A stretch of 64,000 bases of DNA, taken from the NCBI GenBank assembly GCA_902624635.1, contig CACNYD010000001.1, positions 302,766-366,765 on the forward strand, written 5' to 3'. The first letter of the stretch is position 1, and each line of letters starts with the position of its first letter. The translations under genes and the position numbers were made by a program. Positions 4,366 to 17,184 of the stretch are shown piece by piece. The notes under the pieces are model-generated. The model did no database searches, had not been told where the DNA came from, and saw only the letters and a list, made by a program, of their open reading frames with translations. The DNA is from an uncultured Pelagibacteraceae bacterium (GTDB lineage Bacteria; Pseudomonadota; Alphaproteobacteria; Pelagibacterales; Pelagibacteraceae).

Positions 4366-4956
4366 ATGAAAAAATTTATCTTGATAATATTTTTTTTAAT
4401 TTTGAATTTGCAGCTTTCAATTAAGGCTGATGATATTAAAGAATTTGAGATCGAAGGTATTAGTTTGTATCAAAGTGCCTTAAACCATTTTAGTATAAAT
4501 GAGCTTAAGGAAGACAGGGTAGATAACTATAATTCAAATAAATACACAACATCAAATATTTATCATGGACTTGAGATGTATGATTATATCCAAATAAGTT
4601 ACAAAACAAATGATCGTAATTATATAATTCAAGATATATCAGCAGCTAAAAATATAAAATATGAAGAGTGTCTTAGCCAACTTGATAGAGTAGAAAGCGA
4701 TATCTCTTCCACATATGTAAATTCATCTGAGATATCAAACGATGGAAAACTTACTTATGACCATCCTGCTGATAAATCGGGTCAAACGAAAGTAACAGAT
4801 ATAGCATGGTATTTTAGCACTGGGGATGTCATAGTGGCTCAATGTTATAACTGGCAATCAGAGTTTGGAAAAAAAAACAATTTTAAGGATTCATTGACCA
4901 TTGGTATTTCAAATAAAGACATAGATCGATGGTTTTCTAATGAGGCATATAATTGA
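4366..4956 (+). CDS. Secreted protein, paralog 1 of 6
   Basis: Signal peptide then KADDIKEFEIEGISLYQSAL; two conserved Cys (YEECL, VAQCYNW). Confidence 0.8.
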   Translation: MKKFILIIFFLILNLQLSIKADDIKEFEIEGISLYQSALNHFSINELKEDRVDNYNSNKYTTSNIYHGLEMYDYIQISYKTNDRNYIIQDISAAKNIKYEECLSQLDRVESDISSTYVNSSEISNDGKLTYDHPADKSGQTKVTDIAWYFSTGDVIVAQCYNWQSEFGKKNNFKDSLTIGISNKDIDRWFSNEAYN

Positions 4957-4971
4957 TAAAGATCCAGTTTT

Positions 4972-5538
4972 ATGAAAATATTTTTATCAATATTAATTTT
5001 AATCTTTAATATTCAATCCTGGACTAAGGCAGATGACATCAAAACGTTTGAGATAGAGGGCATCACTATTGGAGAGCCTTTATTGAGTCATTTTACAAAG
5101 GCTCAAATTAAAAATAGTAATAAAAATAATTATCCAAAAAGCAATAAATTTGTTGGAGTAGAAATCCGTTTAACAAATCCTGATCAATATGAATTAGTTC
5201 AAATTCATTATGACAGTGAACTTATTATTCACTCTGTAGCTGGAGTTGTGTTTTTGGAAAATATTAAAAACTGTTATTCGAGACAACAGGAAATAAAAAA
5301 TCAATTAAAGAGTTTATTCGAGAATTATGAAATTTTTGAGGATACATTAGTACATAGACAAGACCCAAGTGGAAAAAGTTCTTGGACGGGTGTTGAATTT
5401 TCTCTTAAAACAGGAGATGCTCTAATTCATTGCACTGATTGGTCTAAAGATTTTGAAAGAAATGGCTATAAAGATAGTTTGAGAATTGAAATTTCAACTA
5501 AAAAATTTTCAGATTTTTTACGTTATGAAGCTTATTGA
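4972..5538 (+). CDS. Secreted protein, paralog 2 of 6
   Basis: Signal peptide, KADDIKTFEIEGITIGEPLL; KNCYS and IHCTDWS. Confidence 0.8.
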   Translation: MKIFLSILILIFNIQSWTKADDIKTFEIEGITIGEPLLSHFTKAQIKNSNKNNYPKSNKFVGVEIRLTNPDQYELVQIHYDSELIIHSVAGVVFLENIKNCYSRQQEIKNQLKSLFENYEIFEDTLVHRQDPSGKSSWTGVEFSLKTGDALIHCTDWSKDFERNGYKDSLRIEISTKKFSDFLRYEAY

Positions 5539-5544
5539 TAATTT

Positions 5545-6123
5545 ATGAGAATATTTTTATTATTATTTATTTTAATATTTGGCATTCAATCCTGGACCCA
5601 GGCTGATGATATCAGAGATTTTCAAATAGAAGGTTTTAGTGTAGGAGATAAACTTTCTGAGAAAATGAGTATTAAAGAGATTGATGAAAATATAATTCCT
5701 TATTTTCAAGATCAAAGAAAGTATTATATTGTTGGAAAAACATATGATTTAAATCAATACGATCAAATCGAATTTTATATAAAGTCAAACGATAAAAGTT
5801 ATGAGATAAGAACAATTGGTGCTGGAATTTTTATTAACAACTTAAATGAATGCTTAGAGGAGAAAAAAAAAGTTGTCAAAGATTTGGATAAAGTATTTAC
5901 AAATATTAAAAAAAGATCAGGTAAGAAAAAACATGAAGCAGACCCTAAGGGAAATTCATTGCAATATATTGATCAATATGATTTTAATTATCCAAACCAT
6001 ATAAGAGTTGAATGCACAGATTATTCAGAGGAAATGCTTAATTCAGGTTTAGCTTCAAATTCTTTAAGTGTTGTAATTATGACCAAAGAAATAAATGATT
6101 GGATTTCTAGTGGTTATAAATAA
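5545..6123 (+). CDS. Secreted protein, paralog 3 of 6
   Basis: Signal peptide, QADDIRDFQIEGFSVGDKL; NECLE and VECTDYSEE. Confidence 0.8.
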   Translation: MRIFLLLFILIFGIQSWTQADDIRDFQIEGFSVGDKLSEKMSIKEIDENIIPYFQDQRKYYIVGKTYDLNQYDQIEFYIKSNDKSYEIRTIGAGIFINNLNECLEEKKKVVKDLDKVFTNIKKRSGKKKHEADPKGNSLQYIDQYDFNYPNHIRVECTDYSEEMLNSGLASNSLSVVIMTKEINDWISSGYK

Positions 6124-6142
6124 ATAATATAGACTTAGCATT

Positions 6143-6730
6143 ATGAGAATAATTTTGATAACAGTTGTATTAATTCTTAGCCTTCAATCATTTACCAAGG
6201 CTGATGATATAAGGGATTTTGAGATAGAGGGAATGACTGTAGGAGACAGTTTATTAAAATACATATCACTAAATGATATAAAAATCGCTGAAGAAAACCC
6301 ATCTTATTATAAAGATAATAAATATGTTACTGTATTTATAAAAAAAGAATTGAGCCAATATCAAGATTTGCAGGTTGTGTATAAGCCAAATGATATCGAA
6401 TATATAATACATGAAATTAAAGGAACAGTTGATTTTGAGGATAATATAGAAAAATGTAAAGTTACTAGAGAACAAATTCTAAAATCAGTTGTTAACTTGT
6501 TTCCAAATGCAGAAAACATTCCTGAAGTTAAAGAACATGAATATGATCAAAGCAAACAATCTATAGTTTACTCAACATGGTTATTTCCAAAAAAAGGAGG
6601 ATTTATACATTTAGCATGTACTGACTGGGGTGAGGAAATGTATAAAAAACATTTATGGGTAGATCATCTTGAGGTTGTAATAGGCTCCGAGGAATTTAGA
6701 AGATTTTTAACTTATGAGGCGTATAAATAA
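6143..6730 (+). CDS. Secreted protein, paralog 4 of 6
   Basis: Signal peptide, KADDIRDFEIEGMTVGDSLL; EKCKV and LACTDWGEE. Confidence 0.8.
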   Translation: MRIILITVVLILSLQSFTKADDIRDFEIEGMTVGDSLLKYISLNDIKIAEENPSYYKDNKYVTVFIKKELSQYQDLQVVYKPNDIEYIIHEIKGTVDFEDNIEKCKVTREQILKSVVNLFPNAENIPEVKEHEYDQSKQSIVYSTWLFPKKGGFIHLACTDWGEEMYKKHLWVDHLEVVIGSEEFRRFLTYEAYK

Positions 6731-6736
6731 TTTACA

Positions 6737-7315
6737 ATGAAAATACATTTAATAGCATTTATTTTAATTTTAAGTTTTCAATCTTTGACCAAGGCAGATG
6801 ATATTAGAGACTTTGAGATAGAGGGGATGAGTATTGGTGACAATGCCTTAGAGCATTTTACAAAAGATGAATTAAATAATGCAGAAAAATTTACCTATCC
6901 AAGTAAAAAATTTAGTGAAATTTTCACTCATTCTTCAAATTATGAAATATATGATTCTGTAACAATATCTTTAATGGAAGGAAAGTATAAAATTTATGGT
7001 ATCAGCGGTGTTATAGATTACAGAGAAAAAAGTTTTGAGGATTGTCTTAAAGCAAAAAATGATATTATTGATGAGTTAAAGATTACTTTCAAAAATAGTA
7101 AGATTATAGATAATGGAACTTATCAAACACCTGATTATGCTGGAGATAAAAGCAAACGCTCTCAAGTAGAGCTACTTTTAAACCAAAATGGTGGAGTTGT
7201 TTCTGTAGATTGTGTTGATTGGTCAAAAGAAGCAGAAAAAAAACATGGCTGGGGAGACAATTTAAGCATAACTTTATACTCAAAAGAATATGAAAGATTT
7301 GTTAGATCTTTATAA
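6737..7315 (+). CDS. Secreted protein, paralog 5 of 6
   Basis: Signal peptide, KADDIRDFEIEGMSIGDNAL; EDCLK and VDCVDWSKE. Confidence 0.8.
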   Translation: MKIHLIAFILILSFQSLTKADDIRDFEIEGMSIGDNALEHFTKDELNNAEKFTYPSKKFSEIFTHSSNYEIYDSVTISLMEGKYKIYGISGVIDYREKSFEDCLKAKNDIIDELKITFKNSKIIDNGTYQTPDYAGDKSKRSQVELLLNQNGGVVSVDCVDWSKEAEKKHGWGDNLSITLYSKEYERFVRSL

Positions 7316-7324
7316 TAATGTTAA

Positions 7325-7906
7325 ATGAGAATTTTATTAATAATTTTAATCATAATTTTTAATCTTACTTCTTTTACCAAGGCTGATGATATTAGAGATT
7401 TTGAAATAGAAGGTATAAGTGTTGAGGATAGTTTATTAGACTTTTTTTCGGAGGAAAAAATTATAAATTCTGAAAAAACAATTTATCCTGGAAGCAAAAA
7501 TTTTTATACAATACATATTGTTGTAGATAGCCAAAATTATGATCAAATTTCTATAGGAGTTAAAAATAATGATAAAAATTACACTGTTTATAATATTGCT
7601 GGAGATAAATTTTATGAGCAAAATCCAAAAAATTGTCTGCCCCAAATGGAAAATGTAGTTAATCAATTTGATGAAGATTTTAAGGCAGCGTTTAAAGATG
7701 AATATAAATACACTTACACTTCTTTAGCTAAAGGTAAAAGTTACGCTGAAATTGTAGATTATAATTTTCCAAATAATAGTGCAATTAGAGTATGGTGTAG
7801 CTTTTACACGGAGGAAGTAATTGAAAAATTTGATGTAGTAAATGGGCTTACTGTAAGTATAGGAACAAATAAATGGTTTAATTTTCTTAATACTGAAGCT
7901 TATTAA
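7325..7906 (+). CDS. Secreted protein, paralog 6 of 6
   Basis: Signal peptide, KADDIRDFEIEGISVEDSLL; KNCLP and VWCSFYTEE. Confidence 0.8.
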   Translation: MRILLIILIIIFNLTSFTKADDIRDFEIEGISVEDSLLDFFSEEKIINSEKTIYPGSKNFYTIHIVVDSQNYDQISIGVKNNDKNYTVYNIAGDKFYEQNPKNCLPQMENVVNQFDEDFKAAFKDEYKYTYTSLAKGKSYAEIVDYNFPNNSAIRVWCSFYTEEVIEKFDVVNGLTVSIGTNKWFNFLNTEAY

Positions 7907-7924
7907 TAACCATGCACTACCATT

Positions 7925-9421
7925 TTAAAAGCTTATAATTTTATAAAAAATTTGAGCAGTTAATAAAAAATAAATTACTGCTCCCCAAATTTTTATATTT
8001 TTATTGATCCTCATTACTTTTACTTGATTTTTTGAAATAAATTTACTGAAGGCAATACTTAAGAATACCGGAATACAACAGAATATATATGAAAGCAATA
8101 TAAACCAGTCCATATCTGTTAAATATTCAAGTCTTGGAATATCATCTTGAAAGACAAAATTATAAGCAATCAGTGCTAATAAAGCTATAATTGAAGTATT
8201 TAATCTTGCTTCATATTTTTCAGTAGGTATCCAGAGCACATACCATGCAACACATAGTATCAAAAAAACTGGCAACATTATTTTCCAAACATAATGCTCA
8301 AAATTTCTCTTTATTATAACTTCAATATCTAAAATATTTTCTTCAACAGTTTCAACTTCTTGATTATAAATATTCCACTCATCGCTTTGTAAAACCTTAC
8401 TTTTTACTGAAATACCATCATTAGGAATTTTCCAAGCCTTAAGTTTATTTACTTCAGGTTTTATAAAGTTTTCTAAATTTTTAAATACGCCTGCCTCAGG
8501 AGAGATTAAAGTAAGAGTACCAATATTACTATCATCTTCAAAATTTCGATTTGTATGATTTTTAACTCCAGTTTTTATTCTAATAATAAGTTTTTGAGTA
8601 TCAAAAGGAAATTTTTTAAAATCAAAAGACTGTCTAAAAAAACCAACTCCTTTTTCTGTTCTTAATGTCCTTAATAAATCATCATCAATAGTAATTTGAA
8701 AAACTGGATTTACTAAAACTTCTTTATTTTTAAGACCCTCTCTAACATCTGCATCGTATTTGAATTCTTCAAACTCAACAGTTTCTAATGGCCAGTTATT
8801 TTTATATCTTGCTTCTTGACAAATAGGTATCAATTGGTCTGTAAAAAATTCTGTCCCTTTTAAAGTTTTAAGCAAATCTTTTCTTACATTAGTAAAATTA
8901 GAAATGAATGACATTTCTAAAATTCCAATATTTGTATCAATATTCTGAATACTTAAAATTTTAAAGTCTTCTAATTTAAAATTATTAAATTTATAAGGTT
9001 TCGATGAAATTGAGATGGTTTTACCATTATCGAGTTGATAATTATTATTACCTGAGAAATATGTAAGATTTATTAGATCTTTATCTGAAATTTTAGATAA
9101 ATCTCGATCATTTATTTTAATGATAGCTGTTTTTGATTCCTCAAAATTTTTATTATCAAATAAGGAATATCTTACTATTGGATAATTATCTTTATTCCTT
9201 TTAATAATTACAATTTCTTTATTCCAATAAAAATCAAAATGAATTCCTGCATCATATCTTGTCTCATTATATGCTGTATTTCTTGGGTCGTTTTCTATTA
9301 AGTAATTCATTGTTTCATTGTCACAGATATTTTCTGACGAAAATGAAACTGAGGAAAAAAGAATAACTTTACTAAAGAATATACAAAGTAAAGCATATTT
9401 AATTATATTTTTAATTTTCAC
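7925..9421 (-). CDS. Pentameric ligand-gated ion channel (Cys-loop/GLIC-like) with extra N-terminal region
   Basis: Signal peptide; ECD motif SFDFKKFPFDTQKLII; M1 WKIMLPVFLILCVAW; M2-M3 YEARLNTSIIALLALIAYNFVFQDDIPRLEYLTDMDWFILLSYIF; C-terminal M4. Confidence 0.88.
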   Translation of the reverse strand: MKIKNIIKYALLCIFFSKVILFSSVSFSSENICDNETMNYLIENDPRNTAYNETRYDAGIHFDFYWNKEIVIIKRNKDNYPIVRYSLFDNKNFEESKTAIIKINDRDLSKISDKDLINLTYFSGNNNYQLDNGKTISISSKPYKFNNFKLEDFKILSIQNIDTNIGILEMSFISNFTNVRKDLLKTLKGTEFFTDQLIPICQEARYKNNWPLETVEFEEFKYDADVREGLKNKEVLVNPVFQITIDDDLLRTLRTEKGVGFFRQSFDFKKFPFDTQKLIIRIKTGVKNHTNRNFEDDSNIGTLTLISPEAGVFKNLENFIKPEVNKLKAWKIPNDGISVKSKVLQSDEWNIYNQEVETVEENILDIEVIIKRNFEHYVWKIMLPVFLILCVAWYVLWIPTEKYEARLNTSIIALLALIAYNFVFQDDIPRLEYLTDMDWFILLSYIFCCIPVFLSIAFSKFISKNQVKVMRINKNIKIWGAVIYFLLTAQIFYKIISF

Positions 9422-9468: not shown

Positions 9469-9933
9469 ATGGCTAAAATTAGAAAAATTGCTTCGATAGA
9501 AAACGGAATAATGCAAGTTTTGAAGATCTTAGATGAGAATGAAGTTCAAGATACTATAGGGAAAAGTTCATCTTATTTGAGAAAATGTAGTGATCCTTCT
9601 CAACAACAACAAATTGATCATAACGACTCTATTAAGCTCGATATTGCTTGCATTAAAAAAGGGAAGGCGCCCCCCTTGTTTATCGCTCATGAATATATTG
9701 TGATAAATGAGTCTGATAATTTAGATTCTCATAAACAAAATGATATCGATGAAATGTTAGTCAAATCAACAATTCTTCATGGAAAACTTACAGAAGTTGT
9801 AAAATTAGCTGAGGATCCAAAAAGCGATAGAGGTATGGAAATATCAAAATTAGAAAAAAAAGAAATTATGGAAGCTATTAAAAACCTAGAAGATAAGATA
9901 ATGAAAATTAAAATTACTGTAGATCAAAAATAA
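9469..9933 (+). CDS. Hypothetical protein, possibly phage-type regulator-like
   Basis: 154 aa complete ORF, divergent from the channel gene; weak family impression only. Confidence 0.55.
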   Translation: MAKIRKIASIENGIMQVLKILDENEVQDTIGKSSSYLRKCSDPSQQQQIDHNDSIKLDIACIKKGKAPPLFIAHEYIVINESDNLDSHKQNDIDEMLVKSTILHGKLTEVVKLAEDPKSDRGMEISKLEKKEIMEAIKNLEDKIMKIKITVDQK

Positions 9934-9936
9934 ATT

Positions 9937-11223
9937 TTAGAGATTTTCAAGTTTGTCCCACTCACCGTCTTCATTATAATCATATGCAATAACATCAGGT
10001 TTACCATCTTCATCCTCGTCTATTTCCGCCTCATCAGCATTACCATTATTATTTGTATCAAATAATATTACCTCAAAATTTCCATCTTCATTTTTATCAA
10101 TAGCAACTATTTCTATAACGCCATCTTCATCTTTGTCTGCATAAGCCACTTCGTAAATATTATTATTATTATCATCTACAAGCCATGCATCAATTTTACC
10201 ATTACCGTTAATATCCACTTCTCTTGCATCTGATAAATCTATTGAGCCTTTTTCAGAAGTTTTCTTTTTCTTTTTTTTTATCCAGGTATTACCTTTATCT
10301 TTCTTTTTAATGTAATTACTTTTCTTTTTTTTAATCGGTTTTGGTTTTTCATTAATAAAATCAATGACATCATTTACAGCTATTGCAAAATTTAAACCTT
10401 CACCTTCTGCTGTAAAAGTGTTTACTCCAATTAATTGCTTTTCTTTATTAAACAAAGGTCCACCAGAATTTCCAGGATTTATATTTGCATCTGTTTGAAT
10501 AACATTCGCTGAGTGTCTAGACCCTTTATAACTCCAATCATAATTAGGTCTTACCTGATTTACAAATCCAGGAGAAAATGTCCAAAGAAGTCCCTCAGGA
10601 TGGCCCATAGCAAATACGTTTTGTCCAGGTTTGACCTGTGAAAATTTACCATAATTCACTGGCTTAATTTTAAGTGGTAACTTTTCAACCTTCAACATGG
10701 CCAAATCTTTAGTTTTGTTAATCTTTATTACTTGTGCATTATAAGAGTCAACTTTATTTATTAAAAAATTTTCGTCTACCATAGTTTTAGGTTTTAACCA
10801 GACTTTCAAACTATCGTTGTTCTCAATTACATGCCAATTAGTAATTATTTTTAATTCTCCTTTGTCTTTGATTACAAAACCAGAACCCATTCCTCTTAAT
10901 TTTGATTTTTTTAAATTTCCAATGAATACAACACTTTCAATATATTGCTCATAAAGCTCTTCAGCACCTTTATATTTTGGTTTGCTTCTATTTTTATTAT
11001 TTGTCTGTATTTCTGTAGTTTTTTCGATTAAAGCTTCATTAAGATTTTTGACACTACCTAAAAGATTTTCTGCATTCTCAGCATCAACCAGATTTGTATC
11101 ATTTACTTTATAAGATGCTTGGGAAACAATTCTAAAATCATTTATATTTCTTATATCAAAGGCGTAAACATTGTATGAAAAAAAAATAAGAAATAACAAA
11201 TATAAATTTAAAAAAAATTTCAT
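9937..11223 (-). CDS. Secreted trypsin-like serine protease with C-terminal EF-loop-like repeats
   Basis: Signal peptide from start at 11223; triad contexts ITNWHVIEN, TKDLAMLKV, GNSGGPLF; Lys-rich linker; D-x-N-x-D-G repeats. Confidence 0.88.
   Translation of the reverse strand: MKFFLNLYLLFLIFFSYNVYAFDIRNINDFRIVSQASYKVNDTNLVDAENAENLLGSVKNLNEALIEKTTEIQTNNKNRSKPKYKGAEELYEQYIESVVFIGNLKKSKLRGMGSGFVIKDKGELKIITNWHVIENNDSLKVWLKPKTMVDENFLINKVDSYNAQVIKINKTKDLAMLKVEKLPLKIKPVNYGKFSQVKPGQNVFAMGHPEGLLWTFSPGFVNQVRPNYDWSYKGSRHSANVIQTDANINPGNSGGPLFNKEKQLIGVNTFTAEGEGLNFAIAVNDVIDFINEKPKPIKKKKSNYIKKKDKGNTWIKKKKKKTSEKGSIDLSDAREVDINGNGKIDAWLVDDNNNNIYEVAYADKDEDGVIEIVAIDKNEDGNFEVILFDTNNNGNADEAEIDEDEDGKPDVIAYDYNEDGEWDKLENL
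9943..10215 (-). repeat. Seven tandem 13-residue (39-bp) EF-loop-like repeats in the protease C-terminus
   Basis: DINGNGKIDAWLV/DDNNNNIYEVAYA/DKDEDGVIEIVAI/DKNEDGNFEVILF/DTNNNGNADEAEI/DEDEDGKPDVIAY/DYNEDGEWDKLEN. Confidence 0.9.
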
Positions 11224-11225
11224 AT

Positions 11226-12623
11226 CTAAGATTTTGGTATGAATATAAAGTCGCCGTTCCCATGATTCCATTTATTCATGGGTCTGTAAAATGGAGTTTG
11301 TTTGCCACCCAACTCATCACTCACTCTCATATATATGTTATGAAGTCTTATTGGTGAATCTGCGTTTTCTAATTCTCTAATAATAATTTTTGCAAAATTT
11401 GAATTCCCTTTCCCTGGTTCCTCAACAAACTCATCATTTCCTGATGCCATCACTATCGCAGCTCTATTTTTTAATAATTTTTCATAAGTTAAATTTTTAT
11501 TATTAATTTTGTCGGAACCCTTTACAGCAAACCAACAAGAATCCACTAATAATGCTAAATGAGTCGATGGTATTTCTGGGCTAATATCACCTTCAAATGA
11601 TGATGTTAAATCATCTATGTTGAACCAATTTCTTTTATTGTTTTTGGATCCATTTACAGGTATCCAATATCTCTCATTCTCTACTTTTTCACCATGCCCA
11701 GAATAATAAATTAATACATAATCATTATCAGTAACCAAATCTTTTAACTCGTCAATTTTATCAAAAAACTCATCTCTAGTAACATCTATACCTGTAATAA
11801 CTTTTTCAAATTTGTACTTAGATTTTAAAATCTTGGAAAGTTTAATAACGTCATTTTTAGGTGATACTAAATCAGCGTATTTTCCTTTAGTGTGATAATC
11901 TGAATTTCCAATCAATAATGCGTAATATTTACCAAACGGATTAAGTGGAGCTGGTCTAGAAGTTTCATTTATTTCAGCAAAATCCTCATATATCTTATTT
12001 TTCTCAAATAACTTAGCAATTTCTTCTTTTTGCGAATGAACGTCGACAAAATACCTTTCTTTACCATCAGCTGTGTTAACACTGCCGGAACCTGAATTTC
12101 CAGATTGACTGGTTTGTCCTGTAAATTTTATTCCATTAGTACATTCACCAGAAATTTGTGACATTAACATGTTTGCATCTGCAAATTTAACAGTCGAAGC
12201 TACTTTACATGTAGTTTCTCCATCATTTAAATAAGCAAATCCTTTGTTCGTTTCATAATAACCGTTAATGAGTTTTGAATTTATATCAGGTAAAACAAAT
12301 CCATAAATTAACGAAGATCTTGAACCATTATTAGCTTGAAAGTAAATTGCACCATCGGGAAGATCTTTTATATTGGCAATATACTTATCTTTTGATTTTT
12401 TTTTAATCCAAGATTTAACCTCTTTAGTAATTTTTTTTTCTTCTTTTTTATACTTCTTTTTATTTTCTTTAATTTTTTTCTTTATCCATGTTGATGTTTT
12501 TTTATCAGTTAATTTCTCAACTTTTTCATCTTTATCTTTTTTTTTTATCCAAGTATTTTCAGATTGAGCAAAAGTTATTGTTCCAAGAAAAATTACAATA
12601 ATTAGTAATATTTTTTTGATCAT
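11226..12623 (-). CDS. Secreted caspase-like (peptidase C14 / metacaspase-like) protein with N-terminal WIKKK repeats
   Basis: Signal peptide; catalytic His in LIYYSGHGE, Cys in LALLVDSCWF; YALLIGNSDY. Confidence 0.88.
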   Translation of the reverse strand: MIKKILLIIVIFLGTITFAQSENTWIKKKDKDEKVEKLTDKKTSTWIKKKIKENKKKYKKEEKKITKEVKSWIKKKSKDKYIANIKDLPDGAIYFQANNGSRSSLIYGFVLPDINSKLINGYYETNKGFAYLNDGETTCKVASTVKFADANMLMSQISGECTNGIKFTGQTSQSGNSGSGSVNTADGKERYFVDVHSQKEEIAKLFEKNKIYEDFAEINETSRPAPLNPFGKYYALLIGNSDYHTKGKYADLVSPKNDVIKLSKILKSKYKFEKVITGIDVTRDEFFDKIDELKDLVTDNDYVLIYYSGHGEKVENERYWIPVNGSKNNKRNWFNIDDLTSSFEGDISPEIPSTHLALLVDSCWFAVKGSDKINNKNLTYEKLLKNRAAIVMASGNDEFVEEPGKGNSNFAKIIIRELENADSPIRLHNIYMRVSDELGGKQTPFYRPMNKWNHGNGDFIFIPKS

Positions 12624-15427: not shown

Positions 15428-16363
15428 ATGATTAAAAAAATTCTTATAATCCTAATTTCAACAATTTTTATCTCAAACGCTAATGCAAAAGATTTACCAG
15501 AAGGTTATCCTGAATGTTGGCAAGATACAGATAATCCAGTAAATATTAATGTTAGACCATTAAATCAAAATCAAGCTAATATGGGTCAAAGTAAAGATCT
15601 ATTCCTTCCTCAAAACTCAAAGGTTGGTCATAAATTTATCCTAATTGATTTTACTTCGCCTCTTAAAAAAGCTCAAATAGATTGGATACAAAAAAGAGTA
15701 TTTGGAAAACCTTTGGCTAATACTACTCCACCATACTGGAGGGTCTCATACATGAAAATTGATGACACTAAAGTTCAGTCTCAAGAAATTGCTTATTCTC
15801 ATGGCAGAATGAAAACAGGAAAAAAATCAAAGTATAAAGGTGAAAAAACAAATTCAGGTTGTGAGGGAGATAAACAAATTCAAATTGCATATAAGGCTTG
15901 GGCGGATATTAACAAATCTTTTGAGACTAAATTTTTAAAAGATTATGAGTCTGAAGCAAATAGAAGTTTAATATTTGAGTATTTATTCCATATCTTAAGA
16001 GAACCTAGCTCAGATTTTACTTCAGAATATCCTATAAGAGAGCTTGTGATTGTCTCAGATTTAATGCAACACTCTAAAAGATTTTCATTCTACAGTCATT
16101 GTAAAACTGAATTATCGAATGTACCTAACAAATGCAGATCCTTTGAAAATTTGCTAAAGAAAACCAAAGTAAAAAATTATATTGATGATAGAAAGCCAAA
16201 GGCTGAAACTTTAAAAAATTTGAAAGTAACAATTCTTTATATAAATCATGATTATGAAACTCGAGATGGATTATCTAGTTCGCTGGTTGCTCTTTGGGAA
16301 GATTTATTTAAGTATATAGGAGTAACGAACTATGAGATTATTAAACAACTAGATATAGATTAA
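15428..16363 (+). CDS. Exported protein, possibly VWA-like fold
   Basis: Signal peptide from start at 15428; FILIDFTSPL, RELVIVSDLMQHS and LKVTILYINHD strand-like segments. Confidence 0.55.
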   Translation: MIKKILIILISTIFISNANAKDLPEGYPECWQDTDNPVNINVRPLNQNQANMGQSKDLFLPQNSKVGHKFILIDFTSPLKKAQIDWIQKRVFGKPLANTTPPYWRVSYMKIDDTKVQSQEIAYSHGRMKTGKKSKYKGEKTNSGCEGDKQIQIAYKAWADINKSFETKFLKDYESEANRSLIFEYLFHILREPSSDFTSEYPIRELVIVSDLMQHSKRFSFYSHCKTELSNVPNKCRSFENLLKKTKVKNYIDDRKPKAETLKNLKVTILYINHDYETRDGLSSSLVALWEDLFKYIGVTNYEIIKQLDID

Positions 16364-17184
16364 TGTTTTCATCGCCATTATTTATTTATCTTGCAACTAT
16401 AATACCGCCTATTCTTCTTGGAGTAATTATTTGGAAATCTGACAAATTTCCAGAACCAGGAAAATTTCTAGTGACATCTTTTATGTTAGGTGTCTCAATT
16501 TTTTTACCATTAGATTTTTTAATTATTTTTGCAGAAGATCATCTGGCACCTTTTCTTGGATTAAATTTAGACTCAATTGATAATTGGAGAGATGGTGGAG
16601 AATTTCCGTCAGGAGAGTATGCTTTTCTTCACTTTTTTAGAGCAGCATATTTAGAGGAGGGATTAAAATTTGCTTTTTTAATTTTTGTTTGCGTGAGATT
16701 GGATGCTCTAAATGAACCAATTGATGCAATAGTTTACGGCGCTGCTATTGGATTAGGTTACGCTGCAATGGAAAATTTAGGTTATTTGTATCTTGATAAA
16801 GCGTGGTCATTAGAAACGGTTAAAGTACGTTATTATCCTTTAGTTATGCATCTTGGCTTTGGTGTTGTTATGGGTTGGTTATTAAGTCAAAGTTTATTTG
16901 ATGAACCTAGTAAGTTTAAAAGAAGATTTTTGATTGTGCTTTCATTATTAATTCCCGTGATTTATCACGGAACTTATAATTATTATGGAACAGCAGATAT
17001 ATTTCCAATTCTTACTTTAATTTTAATCGCTTCAATTATTTATTGGGCACGAAGAGAGCAATTAAAAAAAATAACTGAAGGAGAAGATAAAGAAGTACCA
17101 CTAACGTCAGATATTACTATTTCTTATGGCTTGTCATTAGTAGTAGTTTCAATTGTAGTAATTTCTGCTATTCTTTATTCATAA
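16363..17184 (+). CDS. PrsW family intramembrane metalloprotease-like protein
   Basis: AYLEEGLKFAFL, AAMENLGYL, VMHLGFGVVMG, VIYHGTYNY motifs within TM helices. Confidence 0.8.
   Translation: MFSSPLFIYLATIIPPILLGVIIWKSDKFPEPGKFLVTSFMLGVSIFLPLDFLIIFAEDHLAPFLGLNLDSIDNWRDGGEFPSGEYAFLHFFRAAYLEEGLKFAFLIFVCVRLDALNEPIDAIVYGAAIGLGYAAMENLGYLYLDKAWSLETVKVRYYPLVMHLGFGVVMGWLLSQSLFDEPSKFKRRFLIVLSLLIPVIYHGTYNYYGTADIFPILTLILIASIIYWARREQLKKITEGEDKEVPLTSDITISYGLSLVVVSIVVISAILYS

Follow-up and report, generated by a model that had tools for sequence, protein, structure and literature searches.

Gene content of the locus

The window, meaning the whole stretch of 64,000 nucleotides analysed here, contains a reverse-strand gene for a subunit of a pentameric ligand-gated ion channel (pLGIC) with a predicted N-terminal PDZ domain; its parts and its principal neighbours are listed in Table 1. 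An earlier sequence-only reading had placed an open reading frame at this position in a SAR11 setting, and both points are confirmed. The frame is intact, without an internal stop, and begins with a signal peptide. In L010, a close relative with 64% identity over the best tblastn segment, ATG stands at the position aligned to the GTG start of the window gene. The assembly (79% complete) contains no other pLGIC match. Scans for promoters and terminators around the gene gave scores no better than shuffles.

Table 1. Features of the channel gene and its neighbours (positions in the window)
Feature	Position	Strand	Details
PDZ-pLGIC subunit gene	7925..9421	-	498 aa; GTG start; ORF, profile, PDB and AlphaFold/Foldseek evidence
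Signal peptide	9335..9421	-	residues ~1-29, by eye; model helix 3-23
N-terminal PDZ domain	8981..9328	-	residues 32-147, ~116 aa; profiles, model, Foldseek
Canonical pLGIC ligand-binding beta-sandwich	8306..8980	-	residues ~148-372; AlphaFold and Foldseek
Cys201, ligand-binding domain	8819..8821	-	partner Cys33 (9323-9325); candidate disulfide, tether of N-terminal segment
Pro-loop FPFD	8600..8611	-	residues 271-274; without Cys-loop cysteines
M2 pore helix	8141..8215	-	residues 403-427; HMMER alignment, AlphaFold
c1	9469..9933	+	154 aa; weakly Phage_CP76/CII-like; candidate regulator
HtrA/Deg-type secreted serine protease without PDZ	9937..11271	-	seven D-x-[DN]-x-[DN] calcium-loop-like repeats
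Secreted caspase-like (C14) peptidase	11226..12623	-	His-Cys dyad by eye
PrsW family intramembrane protease	16363..17184	+	7 kb from channel

The small gene c1 is divergent from the channel gene, with 47 bp between them. The repeats of the HtrA-like protease are spaced at exactly 13 aa and are kept in 16 of the 18 members of its cluster. At the other end of the channel gene, window positions 4366-7906 hold six tandem secreted paralogues of ~190 aa, convergent with the channel; similar arrays are found at L010, L013, L054 and L059. TerB-like genes lie beside pLGICs at L074, L075, L077 and L094; these loci belong to the sister family and, by eye, to another alphaproteobacterial family as well.

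The channel core and pore

The window protein is a pLGIC, with a similarity to known members far beyond chance. It matches the profiles Neur_chan_memb (7.2e-6; 8.9e-7 and 28.4 bits, above the cut-off, in the genome-wide search) and NCBIfam LGIC_1 (7.3e-20), and its PDB sequence matches include DeCLIC, ELIC and GLIC (1e-15 to 1e-9). The AlphaFold model (pLDDT 79) has the beta-sandwich and four-helix topology expected from the sequence-only reading, with helices at 374-397, 403-427, 436-461 and 466-493. DeCLIC is the best Foldseek match to this model (1.6e-17), and all 50 matches listed are pLGICs. Pro272 of the Pro-loop is invariant among relatives. The "Cys-loop" label given earlier does not apply, as the bounding cysteines are absent; the stretch after residue 201 and ahead of M1 contains no cysteine.

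Within M2, the HMMER alignment of the window protein to ELIC is ungapped and reproduces the earlier assignment of Glu to -2', Arg to 0' and Leu to 9'; the remaining pore positions are Asn 2', Ile 6', Ala 13', Phe 16' and Asp 20', followed by a second Asp at 21'. Among relatives, -2' is Glu or Asp in 45/46 and 9' is Leu in all 46, while 2' is Thr or Asn, 6' is Val, Ile or Thr, and 13' is Ala. An acidic -2' ring correlates with cation selectivity across the superfamily. The channel is predicted to be cation-selective because of the acidic -2' position, conserved in these 45 relatives, together with the Asp residues at 20' and 21' of the window protein; -2' Glu by itself is no proof of cation selectivity. 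The selectivity proposed earlier thus stands as a prediction.

The N-terminal domain

An additional region ahead of the ligand-binding domain had also been noticed from the letters. It is present, with a length of ~116 aa (residues ~32-147); the former figure of 150-200 aa was an overestimate. The suggestion that it is a domain of no known kind sensing an unknown ligand gives way to a PDZ assignment, based on profiles, a held-out profile and Foldseek. Pfam PDZ does not match the window sequence alone; for this reason the PDZ test used family profiles, the held-out profile and structure.

A profile of 24 N-terminal domains (A2) finds PDZ chains in the PDB: a site-2 protease homologue (2.4e-7), GRIP1 (8.1e-7), PSD-95 (1.4e-5) and protease DO (1.3e-4). 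Half of its members (12/24) match Pfam PDZ themselves, the best at 1.6e-6, and PDZ domains can be recognised by eye in the relatives L005, L006, L003 and L042 (e.g. IVGRITRQSAIGMVTPGDEIISING). The profile of the window clade alone has five PDB matches at E<=10, all of them PDZ (0.2-1.8). When the window clade is left out of the profile, the window domain is found at 3e-7, and 16/16 window-clade domains score above every background gene and shuffle.

The structural model of the domain (pLDDT 86) has, in domain numbering, strands 50-55 and 68-72, helix 82-88, and strands 94-99 and 104-108; this is the PDZ order, with alpha-B between beta-4 and beta-5. All 50 Foldseek matches listed for it are PDZ proteins, including CtpA, DegS, HtrA and PSD-95, with a best E of 3.6e-3 and TM of 0.40-0.50. 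The window PDZ is divergent or degenerate and has no clear alpha-A. Its carboxylate-loop-like X-phi-G-phi motif reads DAGIHF, and the glycine at this position (Gly59 in the window) is invariant (32/32). With high confidence, the architecture is a PDZ domain joined to a pLGIC.

A cysteine pair may link the two parts. Cys33 and Cys201 look like a candidate disulfide that would tether the N-terminal segment. In 40 of 46 relatives there is a cysteine close to the mature N-terminus as well as one in the ligand-binding domain, and four have neither; in the remaining two, the N-terminal cysteine is lost and a new one lies close to the other. These losses are confined to one subclade.

Distribution among Pelagibacterales

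The survey across SAR11 that had been proposed with the sequence-only reading finds channel profile matches in 44/398 sampled Pelagibacterales genomes and the PDZ-pLGIC in 28/398 (about 7%). In the tree, the window protein groups with SAR11 relatives of like gene order. The subunits without a PDZ (S) fall into a single clade with support 100/99; the PDZ region is kept in every sampled member of the family outside S. Outside Pelagibacterales, L095 (genome G681) has a PDZ-pLGIC gene 1 bp downstream of a c1-like gene. A phage origin for the channel gene was considered and dropped: phage records gave no match, and no occurrence in viral contigs was confirmed. A separate SAR11 group, L084-L091 and L093, has PDZ-less pLGICs of ~415 aa without protease association.

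Two of the neighbouring genes track the PDZ-type channel. By counts that ignore relatedness, PrsW occurs in 22/28 genomes with a PDZ-pLGIC against 27/370 without, and c1 in 21/28 against 22/370; among the 398 sampled genomes, neither is enriched with other-clade channels. A protease gene (PrsW, the HtrA-like type with calcium-loop-like repeats, or the caspase-like peptidase) lies within 8 kb of 35/38 PDZ-pLGIC loci and 1/9 PDZ-less other-clade loci, again ignoring relatedness; related genomes are non-independent in all these neighbourhood counts. Gene order differs among relatives while the proteases recur. The HtrA type is found again in a second subclade, directly after the PDZ-pLGIC gene and overlapping its 3' end in L069 and L076.

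Comparison with known channels

DeCLIC (PDB 6v4a, 9ftg) shares with the window protein the channel core (E 4e-15 by sequence, and the best Foldseek match) and the presence of an additional periplasmic N-terminal module ahead of the ligand-binding domain. Its NTD1 and NTD2 are much longer and resemble calcium-binding domains (PMC12664993), whereas the window protein has one PDZ domain. A DeCLIC-type arrangement of two beta lobes was rejected for the window protein, which has 116 aa in a single domain with PDZ topology. GLIC, ELIC and sTeLIC share the Pro-loop ligand-binding domain, the four transmembrane helices and the hydrophobic gate residue at 9' (GLIC also the -2' Glu); unlike the window channel, they have no additional N-terminal domain.

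Tasneem et al. (PMC549065) describe other bacterial pLGICs, which carry PBP-I, Cache or MCP-N domains. These also place an N-terminal sensor on a pLGIC core, but their partner domain binds small molecules. DegS, HtrA and CtpA, the top Foldseek matches of the domain, have PDZ domains that are periplasmic too; there the PDZ controls a protease, while in the window protein its fusion partner is a channel. Periplasmic protease PDZ domains such as that of DegS recognise exposed C-termini.

Jaiteh et al. 2016 (PMC4795631) had recorded pLGICs in Pelagibacter before, and the presence of such channels there is not new; the new parts are the PDZ fusion and the protease neighbourhood. The term "PDZ" is absent from the texts of PMC549065, PMC4795631 and PMC12664993. 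No description of a PDZ-fused pLGIC was found in the open-licence papers searched, where absence is no proof of novelty; searches there for PrsW with ligand-gated channels, and for SAR11 or Pelagibacter with them, returned nothing relevant beyond Jaiteh et al.

Proposed function and alternatives

To our knowledge, most bacterial pLGICs have no natural ligand assigned to them. The PDZ identity, judged from profiles and a predicted fold, points to binding of peptides or protein C-termini, not of a small metabolite; this narrows the ligand class to a testable one, and the recurring proteases suggest a source of such ligands. Taken together, the features suggest a channel responsive to protein fragments or to stress at the cell envelope. 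A PDZ domain of this kind would be a new sensor type for a superfamily that includes the animal neurotransmitter receptors, and it is found in one of the ocean's most abundant bacterial groups, whose genomes are otherwise streamlined.

In the mechanism favoured here, each subunit has a signal peptide, a PDZ domain, a Pro-loop ligand-binding domain and four transmembrane helices, and the subunits would assemble into an inner-membrane pentamer with predicted cation selectivity. Its periplasmic side would bear a ring of five PDZ domains. In most relatives the conserved cysteine pair would tether these domains, and the ring would bind periplasmic peptides or the exposed C-termini of proteins. Binding would act through the ligand-binding domain to open or modulate the pore; envelope protein damage or proteolysis would then become an ion signal, as cation flux or depolarisation. 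The adjacent proteases could be the source of the peptides, could cut the channel itself, or could be controlled by the ions that pass through it. As a whole, this protease-linked, peptide-tuned gating is put forward tentatively and is somewhat more open to doubt than to acceptance. The degenerate state of the window PDZ and the 7 kb that separate PrsW from the channel in the window count against it. The fuller version, a PDZ-gated system with a channel that protein C-termini open or close and in which PrsW, HtrA-like and caspase-like proteases couple envelope proteolysis to ion flux, with heteropentamers of PDZ-bearing and PDZ-less subunits in some relatives, is unlikely to hold in all its parts.

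PDZ domains can have a purely structural role. It is possible, if doubtful, that the channel is gated by a small molecule or by calcium and that its PDZ serves only in assembly, tethering or gating speed, comparable to the N-terminal domain of DeCLIC. That protein, the best structural and sequence match, is calcium-sensitive, and its N-terminal domain modulates gating (PMC12664993, 2025). Calcium-loop-like repeats are present in the neighbouring HtrA-like protease, and S clade channels manage without a PDZ. Retention of the PDZ in all sampled non-S members, with its invariant carboxylate-loop glycine, counts against this reading, as do protease neighbours that track PDZ-type channels and not other-clade ones.

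PrsW cleaves an anti-sigma factor in Bacillus. By analogy, the PDZ could be a docking site that recruits adjacent proteases or envelope proteins, and the pLGIC would then be an anchored sensor that signals by being cleaved itself. Recurrence of PrsW, HtrA-like and caspase-like genes beside the channel fits such docking, as does the lack of a PDZ in the neighbouring HtrA-like protease itself; but complex and cleavage site are both hypothetical, the neighbours examined include no recognisable sigma/anti-sigma pair, and conduction is probably used because the pore is conserved. Docking is improbable. The channel and its protease neighbours may also reflect shared variable islands and not joint function. 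The patchy presence of the PDZ-pLGIC among the sampled genomes, and the six tandem genes and other unknowns nearby, are in keeping with this. A loosely assembled island in which the channel is functionally unlinked to the proteases is nevertheless very unlikely, since in several subclades the channel is accompanied by proteases of different kinds, in varying orders and spacings and with gene overlaps, and c1 recurs with the PDZ-pLGIC outside Pelagibacterales.

Loci with more than one channel gene

A Tat-signal flavin amine oxidase gene lies directly upstream of the PDZ-less S gene at 9/9 loci (L058, L065, L066, L072, L078, L080, L082, L020 and L022), usually with a PDZ-pLGIC gene alongside. 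Loci with both subunit types are candidates for a heteromeric bacterial channel, and the oxidase is a hint of an amine ligand. Two PDZ-pLGIC genes per locus are found at L068, L070 and L062, in tandem at the first two; their products could form heteromers.
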